From an uncultured Candidatus Melainabacteria bacterium (GTDB lineage Bacteria > Cyanobacteriota > Vampirovibrionia > Gastranaerophilales > Gastranaerophilaceae): a DNA stretch of 35,627 bases. The translations under genes were made by a program, and so were the position numbers. Below are positions 7,912-19,194 of this stretch, in pieces; within the stretch, counting starts at the first letter, position 1, and each line of letters opens with the position of its first letter. The stretch lies in the NCBI GenBank assembly GCA_950096985.1, contig CATNBA010000015.1:1-35627 (forward strand), read 5' to 3'. The notes below the pieces were generated by a model. The model was not told the origin of the DNA. It was given only the letters and a program-made list of their open reading frames with translations, and did not search any database.

Positions 7912-7928
7912 TTATGAAAGGAGTTTAT

Positions 7929-8825
7929 ATGAAATTATATCTTGATAATGAAATTGATAAAAAGCTTTCCGAATTATATCCTAAAGAGGTTATTGAAAAT
8001 GCAAAAATTGGTGTTATTGACTATCTTGGAATGAATATAACAGAATATAAAGATAGCGATATAATTTTCAAAATATATTATGATGACGGTCATAGCAGAG
8101 AAGAATATGAAACAAAATATAAAAATGACCCGTTGATTGATTTTTTATATGAAAAAAATATGGTTTATTTTTTAGAGATTGTACGTGATAAAGATAATAC
8201 TGAATGTACACGATTTAATGTCGGTCTTAAAAATTTAACTAATGAAAATGTAATGTCATTATTTGCGTGGTTAGAAAAGAATGTAAGTTTTTTCGCGAAG
8301 TATAAAGATGAGATTTTAAAACTTTCTGAAATAAAACGTTATATGAACGAAGATTATAAGTATTCTTCATTCTTTTTTATTGGGATTGTGAAAGATGAAA
8401 CAGGTATTAAAGTTCTTAAATGCTATTGGTTGAACAAAAACAGGGAACCGCATGAAATATTTAATGACGATTATCACTTAAAATTTTTAGAGGAATCAGG
8501 AATAAAACAATTCCAAGAATTAATTCCCCTTACAAAAGAGGCAATTAAGAATTGTGGAAGACATTTGTGTATGACCGGTATTGATTATAATTCTGAATGT
8601 TCTGAAAAACATAAACTTTATGTTGATTATCCGACAGATGTATATGGTGGTCTGCTTAAAACTTTTCCGGAAAATGAAGAACTGAAAAAGAAAATAATTC
8701 TTATACGTGACTGGCATGAAATTCACGATGAATTTTATTGCGATGGTTTTACAATAGGAAAAGATTCTGAAAATAAATTAGTTTTAAATATATATTTTAA
8801 ATTTAAAAAAAACTATGAAGGATAG
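7929..8825 (+). CDS. Unrecognised 298-aa protein with five strand-pair/helix units (possible PT-barrel fold)
   Basis: No family is recognised with certainty. The 298 residues show a regular alternation of predicted helices and five antiparallel strand pairs, at about 27-52, 78-100, 147-168, 213-233 and 269-292. Several pairs share the pattern hydrophobic-GI-x-D-x(4)-K-x-K-x-Y (for example MTGIDYNSECSEKHKLYV). Five such units, ten strands and about 300 residues is the architecture of ABBA-type prenyltransferases, including the cyanobactin PatF/TruF group. This is inference from layout only, and no active-site motif is confirmed. It has no signal peptide or membrane segment. Start ATG 7929 has AAAGGAG 5 nt upstream. 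No promoter of its own is evident after the tRNA terminator. It ends directly against an SDR gene relic. Confidence 0.7.
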   Translation: MKLYLDNEIDKKLSELYPKEVIENAKIGVIDYLGMNITEYKDSDIIFKIYYDDGHSREEYETKYKNDPLIDFLYEKNMVYFLEIVRDKDNTECTRFNVGLKNLTNENVMSLFAWLEKNVSFFAKYKDEILKLSEIKRYMNEDYKYSSFFFIGIVKDETGIKVLKCYWLNKNREPHEIFNDDYHLKFLEESGIKQFQELIPLTKEAIKNCGRHLCMTGIDYNSECSEKHKLYVDYPTDVYGGLLKTFPENEELKKKIILIRDWHEIHDEFYCDGFTIGKDSENKLVLNIYFKFKKNYEG

Positions 8826-8826
8826 A

Positions 8827-8890
8827 TTTTATTCCGGTTGTCCTGTGTGCACATCAAGTCCGCCTGTTATAGGAAGGTTTACACCGTTAC
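8827..8890 (-). pseudogene. Relic of an SDR gene 3' end (direct repeat with 10145-10208)
   Basis: Read on the minus strand this 64-bp segment encodes NGVNLPITGGLDVHTGQPE and a stop, almost identical to the last 19 residues of the intact SDR gene at 10147-10881. The DNA matches 10145-10208 at 58 of 64 positions. The differences are mostly silent, with one Val/Ile change, so the two ends diverged as coding sequence before this one lost its upstream part. The rest of the gene is absent; a SLOG gene begins 8 bp away. It marks the left edge of an apparent insertion or recombination tract. Confidence 0.85.
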
Positions 8891-8898
8891 ATAAATTC

Positions 8899-9342
8899 TT
8901 ACTTCAATAGCGTTACTTTAATTAACCCCTTTTTCTCTCGTCCTTGAGCGTACTCAACAATTTTTCTAGAATTACCAACACCACAATATGCTATTAAATA
9001 GTTGCTATGTTGTACCATGTACCGATTTGCCTGCACAATAGCAAAAGGTTTTGGCACTGTTTCCATTCCTTCAGGGTACAATGTTCCGTCAAAATCCTCC
9101 AGAGTTTCTTTTTTCTGATTAAGTACATACGGTGCAAGTAAGTATAGTTTAATGTCTGTATGTCGTTTCTTTGCTTCTCTTAGAACCCCTTTTACTAAAC
9201 GGTCAAAATCGCCGTAATGACCGACTGTAAAAGTGGTCACGCCGTATTCCGTAATATGTTTTTCAACAGCTTGTGCAAGCTGTTCTTTAATGCTGCTTGG
9301 GGTGTATCTGCTTCCTATAAAAAAACATTTTTTGTTGTCCAT
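8899..9342 (-). CDS. SLOG-superfamily (DUF1273/YpsA-like) nucleotide-binding protein
   Basis: A 147-residue Rossmann-like protein. CFFIGSRYTPSSI (6-18) is the first strand and phosphate loop, FTVGHYGDFDRLVKGVLREA is the second glycine-containing element with the GDFD motif, and AIVQANRYMVQHSNYLIAYC leads to a last GVGNSRKIVEYAQ loop. This order matches the SLOG superfamily, whose members bind nucleotides or nucleotide-derived ligands and are frequent in phages, plasmids and defence loci; DUF1273-like proteins are common in Firmicutes mobile regions. The exact ligand is unknown. It sits divergently from the twin XRE genes, inside the SDR-repeat-bounded tract, which fits horizontal gain. The nearest GGAG lies about 15 nt before the ATG, so ribosome binding is not obvious. 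Confidence 0.75.
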   Translation of the reverse strand: MDNKKCFFIGSRYTPSSIKEQLAQAVEKHITEYGVTTFTVGHYGDFDRLVKGVLREAKKRHTDIKLYLLAPYVLNQKKETLEDFDGTLYPEGMETVPKPFAIVQANRYMVQHSNYLIAYCGVGNSRKIVEYAQGREKKGLIKVTLLK

Positions 9343-9346
9343 AATT

Positions 9347-9358
9347 AAGTTATAACTT
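9347..9358. promoter_or_regulatory. Palindrome upstream of the SLOG gene
   Basis: Perfect 12-bp palindrome AAGTTATAACTT, 4 bp upstream of the SLOG start codon, in the divergent region shared with the first XRE gene. It could be an operator. Confidence 0.3.
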
Positions 9359-9402
9359 CTCCATATTTAGTACAATAATTAATTATAGTATAAACATGTC
9401 TA

Positions 9403-9432
9403 TATAATGAGTTTTAATTTATTTTAAAATAA
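9403..9432 (+). promoter_or_regulatory. Promoter -10 box and palindromic operator candidate of the first XRE gene
   Basis: A perfect TATAAT (9403-9408) is followed by a perfect 14-bp palindrome TTATTTTAAAATAA (9419-9432), positioned just after the expected transcription start. The same place in the second gene copy carries a degenerate version (9802-9815), while the -10 box there is not conserved. Autoregulation by the XRE proteins is a reasonable inference. Confidence 0.4.
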
Positions 9433-9447
9433 GCAACACTCATAGTT

Positions 9448-9759
9448 ATGAGTTATCAAAAGCTAATAACTAATGGTATAAAGCGTTTACGAACTGAAAA
9501 CAAACTCACCCAAGAAAAGTTTGCCGAAAAAATTAACATGAGCGTTCAGGGGTATCGTAACATTGAACATAGCAGATATTTACCAACAGCAGAAACAATC
9601 GATAAAATATGCAAGGTTTTTAATATTCAACCTGTTGAACTACTACTACCCGAACCACAAGAAAATCTAGATAAATTAAGAAAACTAATCAATATCAAAC
9701 TAAGCAACTGTGATGTAGATAAACTAATTAAAATCAATAACTTTATAGATTTAATATAA
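9448..9759 (+). CDS. XRE-family HTH regulator, tandem copy 1
   Basis: A 103-residue Cro/CI-type repressor. The five-helix HTH spans residues 5-65: ITNGIKRLRTENKLTQEKFA, then EKINMSVQGYRNIEHSRY with the recognition helix, then TAETIDKICKVFNIQPVELL. A short C-terminal tail (72-103) with two Cys-flanked turns is probably the dimer part. It is about 84% identical to the next gene (16 differences), and the upstream DNA is also similar, so this is a tandem duplication of a unit of about 380 bp. No Shine-Dalgarno precedes ATG. Together with the divergent SLOG gene it fills the tract bounded by SDR repeats. Confidence 0.9.
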   Translation: MSYQKLITNGIKRLRTENKLTQEKFAEKINMSVQGYRNIEHSRYLPTAETIDKICKVFNIQPVELLLPEPQENLDKLRKLINIKLSNCDVDKLIKINNFIDLI

Positions 9760-9830
9760 CAATAAATATAGCACAAGTATGTCCACTTAATTAGTTTTAA
9801 TTTGTTTCAAGATAAGTAACAATTATACTG

Positions 9831-10142
9831 ATGAGTTACAAAGAACTAATAACTAATGGCATAAAGCGTTTACGAGCTGAAAACAAACTTACACAAGAAC
9901 AGTTTGCAGAAAAGATTAGCATGAGTGTCCAAGGTTACAGAAACATTGAACACAATAGGTATTTGCCAACTGCTGAAACAATAGATAAAATTTGTGAAGT
10001 ATTTAATATTCAACCTGTTGAATTATTGTTGCCTGAGCCACAAGCGAACCTGGACAAAGTGAGAGAACTAATTAATAATAAGCTATGTAACTGTGACTTA
10101 GATAAACTGATTAGAATTAACAATATGATAGACTTAATGTGA
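9831..10142 (+). CDS. XRE-family HTH regulator, tandem copy 2
   Basis: Second copy of the 103-residue XRE regulator. The HTH is at residues 5-65 with GIKRLRAENKLTQEQFAEKI and MSVQGYRNIEHNRYLPTAET. The recognition helix is nearly unchanged from copy 1, so both copies probably read the same operator; changes cluster in the C-terminal tail (72-103). The -10 box of copy 1 is not preserved upstream, while the region around the palindrome is partly kept, so this copy may depend on read-through. Its TGA ends 4 bp from the convergent SDR stop codon. There is no Shine-Dalgarno. Confidence 0.88.
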   Translation: MSYKELITNGIKRLRAENKLTQEQFAEKISMSVQGYRNIEHNRYLPTAETIDKICEVFNIQPVELLLPEPQANLDKVRELINNKLCNCDLDKLIRINNMIDLM

Positions 10143-10144
10143 AC

Positions 10145-10208
10145 TTTTACTCCGGCTGTCCTGTGTGCACATCCAGTCCGCCTGTCACCGGAAGGTTTAC
10201 ACCGTTAC
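10145..10208. repeat. Direct repeat, right copy (intact SDR gene end)
   Basis: The last 64 bp of the SDR gene region, repeated at 8827-8890 in the same orientation with 58 of 64 identical positions. The two copies bound the SLOG and twin XRE genes. Confidence 0.85.
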
Positions 10209-10881
10209 AATAACTGGATTCTTCACTTGCAAGAAAATATATCACTTTTGCAACTTCTATAGGAGCGCAAATTCTTTTTAAAGGATTTACACACGCATAT
10301 TTCGGTATATTATCAGGGTTAAGCATATTTGTGTCAACCGCTGACGGACATACGCTGTTTACTCTTATGTTAAACTTGGCATAATCCAGTGCCATTGCTC
10401 TTGTAAGATTTACTACAGCTCCTTTTGCCGCATTATAAATAGGCATTTCATAATCACCCGCAATACCTGAAATTGAAGCAGTGTTGACAATTGTGCCATG
10501 ACCGTTTTGAATTAACTCGGGTATAAAATATTTTGATGTTAAATAAATTGATTTTACATCGTTAGACATTAAATCATCCCAATCCTTTTCGGGAGCTTCG
10601 TGAAGAAGACCGTGGGCTATTATTCCTGCATTGTTTATTACACAGTCAATACCATATATAAGTTCTTGCACTTTTGAATGTAAATGTTTGACATCTTTAT
10701 CTTTGCTTACATCTGTTTTTACAAAAAAAATTTTTTCACCGTACTGTTCTTTTAATGTTTCAAGAATATCTGTTTTTTCTTCTTTGTCAGCCATAAACAC
10801 AACCCACCCTCTTTCAAGAAAAAGAACCGTTGATGCAAGACCTATACCTGACATAGCTCCCGTGATTAATACTCGTTTCAT
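10147..10881 (-). CDS. Short-chain dehydrogenase/reductase (SDR)
   Basis: Classical SDR of 244 residues, an NAD(P)(H)-dependent oxidoreductase. The cofactor motif TGAMSGIG is at 7-14 and NNAG at 83-86. The catalytic set is Asn108, Ser in TASISGI (136/138), Tyr149 and Lys153 (YNAAK). The usual PG after the active site is PS (CPSAVDT). The C-terminus GGLDVHTGQPE is typical in that GG and a hydrophobic residue follow the last strand. The substrate is unknown. It has an AAGGAG ribosome-binding site. A dyad (10948-10974) lies upstream, between it and pnuC. The 3' end has a diverged partial copy at 8827-8890, the edge of the SLOG/XRE tract. Confidence 0.93.
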   Translation of the reverse strand: MKRVLITGAMSGIGLASTVLFLERGWVVFMADKEEKTDILETLKEQYGEKIFFVKTDVSKDKDVKHLHSKVQELIYGIDCVINNAGIIAHGLLHEAPEKDWDDLMSNDVKSIYLTSKYFIPELIQNGHGTIVNTASISGIAGDYEMPIYNAAKGAVVNLTRAMALDYAKFNIRVNSVCPSAVDTNMLNPDNIPKYACVNPLKRICAPIEVAKVIYFLASEESSYCNGVNLPVTGGLDVHTGQPE

Positions 10882-19104: not shown

Positions 19105-19194
19105 TGGAGGAGGAGGTGGGATTCGAACCCACGGTACGCGTGAACGTACGACAGTTTTCAAGACTGCTCCAATCAACCGCTCTGGCACTCCTCC
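19105..19194 (-). tRNA. tRNA-Ser (TGA anticodon)
   Basis: Class II tRNA with long variable arm. The acceptor is GGAGGAG (19194-19188) paired with CTCCTCC (19115-19109), the anticodon stem is GCAGT/ACTGT around CTTGAAA, the variable arm is CGTACG...CGTACCG-like, and the T-loop is TTCGAAT. The 3' end reads T then CCA, so the discriminator base would be U73 instead of the G73 usual in bacterial tRNA-Ser. CCA appears encoded here but is not in tRNA-Met of this window. A short terminator follows. Confidence 0.93.

Follow-up and report, generated by a model that had tools for sequence, protein, structure and literature searches.

The window analysed here, a 35,627-nucleotide stretch of DNA from a Candidatus Gastranaerophilales genome (a gut bacterium, relative of cyanobacteria; 1.65 Mb, 48-contig assembly), raises the question of why the 3′ end of a single SDR oxidoreductase gene occurs twice, on either side of a tract of three small genes. 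A first-pass annotation had reported the last 64 bp of this gene as repeated in direct orientation at 8827 with 58 of 64 positions identical; our repeat search of the window bears this out and extends it to a 65-nt direct repeat, 8827-8891 versus 10145-10209, with 59/65 identical positions (91%). The SDR-end sequence has only two matches in the whole genome, both in the window, and a chance origin of the repeat was ruled out, the remaining 65-mers of the window all matching at fewer than 38 of 65 positions. The locus comprises the following features, together with a tRNA-Ser gene farther along the window:

7914..8825, plus strand: left flanking gene, 303 aa, no family; stops 1 bp before the repeat
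8827..8891, minus strand: attL-like SDR 3′ end, comprising the final 20 codons, the stop and 2 nt (65-nt direct repeat, 91%)
8892..10144, no strand: mini-element body, 1253 bp, holding SLOG, XRE1, XRE2 and almost nothing more
8899..9342, minus strand: SLOG-fold (YpsA-like) protein, 147 aa (AlphaFold model and Foldseek)
9343..9447, no strand: divergent promoter/operator-like region between SLOG and XRE1 (alignment of seven intergenic regions; putative operator)
9448..9759, plus strand: XRE1 regulator, 103 aa, HTH_3 (PF01381, E 4.6e-15)
9760..9830, no strand: duplicated operator-like region ahead of XRE2 (repeat search and intergenic alignment; putative function)
9831..10142, plus strand: XRE2 regulator, 103 aa, paralogue of XRE1 (PF01381, E 6.2e-15)
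10145..10209, minus strand: attR-like copy, which forms the present SDR 3′ end (65-nt direct repeat)
10147..10881, minus strand: target gene, SDR oxidoreductase, 244 aa (PF13561, E 4.9e-51)
19105..19194, minus strand: tRNA-Ser(TGA), unoccupied in the window; its counterpart in genome G046 is occupied by a SLOG+XRE module

On the SDR strand, both repeat copies read CNGVNLP(I/V)TGGLDVHTGQPE followed by the stop codon. As the earlier annotation had noticed, the left copy retains the final residues and the stop with mostly silent changes: five of the six differences fall at third codon positions, and the sole residue change is I/V (ATA to GTG). The SDR ORF is intact and is completed by the right copy; its nearest NCBIfam is meso-2,3-butanediol dehydrogenase, with a score below the cut-off. 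GC3 is 0.23 in the SDR body, 0.30 in the far (left) copy and 0.55 in the joined (right) copy, the last being the top value among all 225 20-codon windows of the gene; by Fisher test against the SDR body, p is 0.005 for the right copy and 0.42 for the left. An element that inserts at the SDR 3′ end with its own copy of the gene end would make the joined end foreign and leave the far copy native, and the GC3 pattern, which covers few codons, fits such a Campbell-type insertion replacing the gene end. The stretch 8827..8891 probably represents the original SDR end, displaced by the insertion, and 10145..10209 probably the end delivered by the element. On the body side, the two ends share an identical stretch of 20 bp, TGTAACGGTGTAAACCTTCC. 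An RNA element at the repeats was rejected, Rfam detecting tRNAs only.

Between the two copies lie, as first described, only the SLOG gene (one 147-aa ORF on the minus strand) and the two XRE genes (103-aa ORFs on the plus strand), with no integration or transfer genes and with gaps between ORF and repeat of 7 bp on one side and 2 bp on the other. No integrase is encoded between the repeats, and the genome's four PF00589 ORFs all lie on other contigs. Elsewhere in the same genome (L191, G000:C10, 7608-9447), a 421-aa tyrosine integrase adjoins a serine resolvase and is a possible candidate for a trans-acting integrase, and at a further locus (L192, G000:C9, 4943-9228) genes resembling those of a Mu-type transposase and its ATPase adjoin another tRNA-Ser gene.

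The 147-aa protein reaches 16 bits against Pfam YpsA (PF06908), below the gathering score of 27.7, and a sequence-profile search for PDB relatives found none. An AlphaFold model built from 31 relatives (pLDDT 90.7, pTM 0.87) has Bacillus subtilis YpsA, 2NX2, as its sole PDB match in Foldseek with E <0.001 (E 3.2e-6; TM-score 0.76 by query length; 11% identity), the next structural matches being LOG proteins and TRPM channel chains. Taken together, the match to 2NX2 and the sub-threshold Pfam score identify the protein, as modelled, as a SLOG Rossmannoid fold remote from YpsA proper. Throughout the alignment of the 31 relatives, G44 and F46-D47 are invariant with GxxD spacing, where the substrate-binding motif of YpsA is GxD/E. 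XRE1 and XRE2 are both HTH_3 proteins well above the gathering score (55 bits vs 23), and their genes form a 383-bp tandem duplication that extends ~70 bp into the upstream sequence (79% identity over 300 bp); in the alignment of seven intergenic regions, it is the final ~70 bp of 9343..9447 that recurs ahead of XRE2.

The tract is most likely a stripped-down mobile element, dependent on an integrase that it does not encode, because relatives hold the same stretch at other gene ends. Its likeness to the modules of genomes G044 and G046 begins at 8892-8912 and stops at 10140. In G046, a near relative of the window genome, SLOG, XRE1 and XRE2 follow tRNA-Ser(TGA) between perfect 69-bp repeats that consist of the tRNA-Ser 3′ end and its terminator. 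A larger counterpart is found in G125, where a 6.3-kb element at tRNA-Ser, bounded by 113-bp att repeats, contains a tyrosine integrase, an XRE gene, small ORFs, SLOG, XRE1, XRE2 and a toxin-antitoxin-like pair. The G046 unit aligns with this element in three blocks, i.e., the tRNA with the left end, the module, and the right end with att, and is missing the integrase region and the toxin-antitoxin pair; judged by this collinearity, it looks like an integrase-less derivative that keeps both att sites, a CIME in the terms of the literature. A third stand-alone SLOG+XRE unit, in G307, is flanked by 135-bp repeats (93%); a dispersed repeat behind these flanks was ruled out, the 135-bp sequence occurring only twice in that genome. 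In G044, a 3′ fragment of tRNA-Ser lies between an integrase-bearing segment and another SLOG+XRE copy, an arrangement suggestive of tandem elements. Stand-alone units measure 1.25-1.45 kb.

Arm-like repeats are absent from the ends of the window's unit, both the TGTCCAT type seen near att in G046 and G125 and the GCGGTAAATGCGGTCAATC type of G044 and G262. In several units, repeats of the latter type stand at fixed spacing, starting ~75 bp ahead of the stop codon of SLOG and 18-85 bp beyond the end of XRE (L031, 1714 and 2729; L072, 8708 and 9694; L125, reverse strand), and they are possible integrase arm sites. Two further repeat arrangements were seen within the larger elements: a ~60-bp direct repeat around a HigB/HigA-like toxin-antitoxin pair in the G125 element (L075, 11065-11126 and 11943-12004), and a CTCCC...GGGAG element ahead of successive genes of the G044 element (L032, 5447-5495, 7612-7660 and 8078-8126) that resembles a shared promoter or attenuator.

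Across the order, SLOG homologues are present in 39 of 383 genomes (~10%) from 14 genera, the named relatives being mostly Candidatus Gastranaerophilales MAGs, and with few exceptions the gene diverges from a set of one to three XRE genes, which belong to three XRE families. On viral contigs SLOG is found on one short contig from another lineage, which is not informative. The module occurs in two settings. One comprises complete integrative elements by tRNA genes, with a tyrosine integrase or a large serine recombinase, the latter in the elements at tRNA-Asp and tRNA-His. The other comprises stand-alone units among seemingly chromosomal genes (the window, G046, G307 and sites at tRNA-Gly/tRNA-Glu), which adjoin tRNA-Gly, tRNA-Glu or tRNA-Ser genes or protein genes; for most stand-alone units at tRNA-Gly/Glu no second att copy is recognisable. 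At the tRNA-Glu site of one genus, three different SLOG+XRE combinations are found, and several other species have no SLOG gene there. At 8 of 38 loci, the SLOG stop has a tRNA 3′ end facing it no more than 400 bp away, against ~0.2 expected, a contrast whose binomial value overstates the tRNA evidence because the Glu and Gly cases share sites and the loci are thus not all independent. Two side observations concern such sites. In L165 (G384), from 2110, the tRNA-Glu 3′ end and terminator are duplicated ~210 bp downstream across a gene-free gap, like the footprint of a lost element; in L076 (reverse strand), a decayed tRNA-Ser 3′ end lies to the right of the second XRE gene, after a stand-alone unit whose neighbours are now protein genes, which would fit a move of the unit together with part of its old att site.

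The tract and its repeats are not shared by all relatives: within the window's genus, the SLOG gene occurs elsewhere only in G044 and G046, both times at other sites. The SDR gene itself is rare (6/383 genomes of the order), and none of the five other SDR loci examined has an element at the 3′ end, which rules out this gene end as a common hot-spot and lends no support to the suggestion of the first-pass annotation that it is a repeatedly used target. Searches of the window's own genome, the other SDR loci and viral contigs found neither an integrase using an SDR 3′ end nor a parent element for this site, and a degenerate-pattern search for the SDR end on viral contigs gave 0 matches. Near relatives do not show the arrangement that had been envisaged, with the 303-aa gene directly beside the SDR gene: G010 and G046 carry pnuC and the 303-aa gene, each at a locus of its own, and have no SDR gene, so that no clean empty SDR site is demonstrable. 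The 303-aa gene (7914-8825) is present in only 5 of 33 genomes of the genus. In the window and in G010 it is situated directly 3′ of tRNA-Met, and in G040 it follows two tRNA-Pro genes on their 3′ side; it may itself be tRNA-associated cargo.

The module and its chromosomal surroundings differ in their history. Between the window and G046, the proportion of synonymous differences is 0.34-0.59 for chromosomal genes (0.69 for one partial gene), and between the window and G044 it is 0.65-0.74; for the module genes, the proportions are 0.67 (SLOG) and 0.69 (XRE2) against G046, and 0.61 and 0.52, respectively, against G044. The module is thus nearer to G044 while the chromosome is nearer to G046, which shows that the SLOG-XRE unit was acquired horizontally. 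XRE2 nevertheless retains 96-98% amino acid identity to its counterparts in G044, G046 and G125 despite the high synonymous divergence. With dN/dS values of ~0.01 for XRE2 (window vs other genomes), ~0.07 for XRE1 (vs G046) and ~0.1-0.16 for SLOG, XRE2 is under extreme purifying selection and all genes of the unit are under selection.

From these comparisons we infer that the 65-bp repeats are att sites (attL/attR) of an integrated, CIME-like mini-element without an integrase. Tyrosine-recombinase IMEs use the 3′ ends of tRNA and protein genes as sites, one repeat restoring the gene (PMC5704250). The explanation that we favour, and hold to be probable, is that a minimal integrative element of 1253 bp, flanked by the 65-bp direct repeats, inserted site-specifically at the SDR 3′ end to form the tract, with its integrase supplied in trans or since lost and its gene pair kept by selection. 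The element would have carried a diverged copy of the SDR end, which would complete the SDR gene upon insertion while the native end was displaced to the far side, the crossover falling within the 20-bp identical stretch next to the SDR body. Since no recombinase is encoded, recombination would have been performed by an integrase acting in trans, or by the element's own integrase, later lost through internal deletion; the SLOG+XRE pair, now a stand-alone unit, would then have been retained through selection. A bolder extension, which we find somewhat doubtful, regards SLOG+XRE as a self-contained minimal mobile class (~1-1.5 kb) that has no recombinase, spreads in trans on the att sites of several unrelated integrases at the 3′ ends of tRNA and protein genes, and persists as an addictive or host-protective unit.

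The first-pass annotation had offered two origins for the tract, an integration target at the SDR end and homologous recombination with a related locus. The former is the better supported because the G046 and G307 modules have other long flanking repeats and full-size relatives with recombinases sit at tRNA 3′ ends, and the GC3 values point the same way. Under the latter, donor DNA comprising the module and an SDR allele of its own entered the locus by recombination and left a second SDR end, which would suit two ends that resemble ~91% identical alleles with mostly silent differences as well as the horizontal acquisition of the module. It gives no account, however, of a repeat that coincides exactly with the last 20 codons and the stop, or of the different repeats around the G046 and G307 modules; the GC3 anomaly is limited to the last 20 codons of the SDR gene, and the body-side identity is just 20 bp, which is short for RecA-mediated exchange. 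We therefore rate homologous recombination as improbable. A tandem duplication of the SDR gene, with the module inserted between the copies and one copy deleted save its last 65 bp, would make a recombinase unnecessary, and the divergence of the ends could date from an old duplication, but this route demands three events and a deletion stopping exactly at the module. It also sits poorly with the silent type of the differences in a relic that would escape selection; no genome was seen with two adjacent SDR genes, and the same insertion geometry already exists at tRNA-Ser in G046, so that we consider such a history very improbable.

As to why the pair is retained, the XRE proteins may, more tentatively, act as repressors that bind the conserved ~70-bp region repeated ahead of each XRE gene, silencing themselves and SLOG. 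SLOG might in turn sense or make a nucleotide ligand or restrain growth, a reading by analogy that draws on the prophage relative YoqJ and on YpsA, whose overproduction hampers cell division in B. subtilis and S. aureus (PMC6459960). One proposal is addiction, whereby a full element at this site was deleted down to SLOG/XRE and att: were SLOG a growth inhibitor held by the XRE repressors, prior loss of the XRE genes would be harmful, and the surviving genes would for that reason be kept. This proposal concerns retention rather than origin and is compatible with the minimal-element explanation. It agrees with the collinearity of the G046 unit with a larger element minus its interior, the division defect upon YpsA overproduction, the dN/dS of XRE2 and the number of stand-alone units; however, SLOG and XRE are divergent and form no toxin-antitoxin operon, and SLOG is only a remote YpsA relative. 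We regard addiction as possible, leaning against it. Alternatively, the pair could be a defence module against phages or other elements that responds to a nucleotide signal and travels as cargo from one attachment site to another, in line with the prediction that SLOG proteins detect or generate nucleotide signals in conflict systems (PMC6459960, citing Burroughs 2015). The rotation of the module at tRNA sites speaks for this idea, whereas the stand-alone units lack an effector gene, no Thoeris-type or other SLOG-system effector or signal-producing gene being found in the unit, and PADLOC has no match for SLOG. Moreover, ThsA, a known SLOG defence protein, is fused to an effector. A role in defence seems unlikely.

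The locus exemplifies, on the favoured reading, a recurrent and very small unit built on one conserved gene pair, SLOG and XRE, that occurs both in complete elements and on its own at many gene ends, with the diverged repeat as an example of how integration can exchange the 3′ terminus of a protein gene. Should the pair by itself account for retention, SLOG proteins would be tied to the control of mobile elements, and a 1.3-kb system would be testable in a laboratory host. Among the papers searched, none was a study of integrative elements in Gastranaerophilales. Among known regulators, the closest named NCBIfam of the XREs by E-value is that of RstR-like phage repressors (NF041951), of which they are not members (41 bits vs a cut-off of 80). 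With B. subtilis YpsA and the prophage protein YoqJ (YpsA SLOG family, 2NX2), the SLOG protein shares the predicted Rossmannoid fold and, for YoqJ, a place on a mobile element; it differs in its 11% identity to 2NX2, its Pfam YpsA score below the gathering score and its divergent XRE partners in place of gpsB. Tycheposons and PICMI-type minimal satellites (PMC10872708, PMC10803314) are likewise small or cargo-carrying units, tycheposons residing at tRNA genes, yet tycheposons carry a tyrosine recombinase where the window's unit has none, and PICMI-type satellites depend on other elements whereas no phage dependence is known for this unit. IMEs and ICEs with tyrosine integrases at the 3′ ends of tRNA or protein genes agree in site preference, repeat geometry and restoration of the target gene, and differ in that the window's unit has no integrase, relaxase or transfer gene. 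CIMEs, cis-mobilizable elements that retain attL and attR and have lost their integration and transfer genes (PMC5704250), differ from the present units, which are very small and recur with one and the same SLOG+XRE content at multiple independent sites, whose mobility is predicted, and for which the SDR-site parent was not found. Shared with CIMEs are the direct repeats, which take in the 3′ end of a target gene, the lack of recombinase and transfer genes, the collinearity of the G046 unit with an integrase-bearing element stripped of its interior, and the apparent tandem with an integrase-bearing element in G044.
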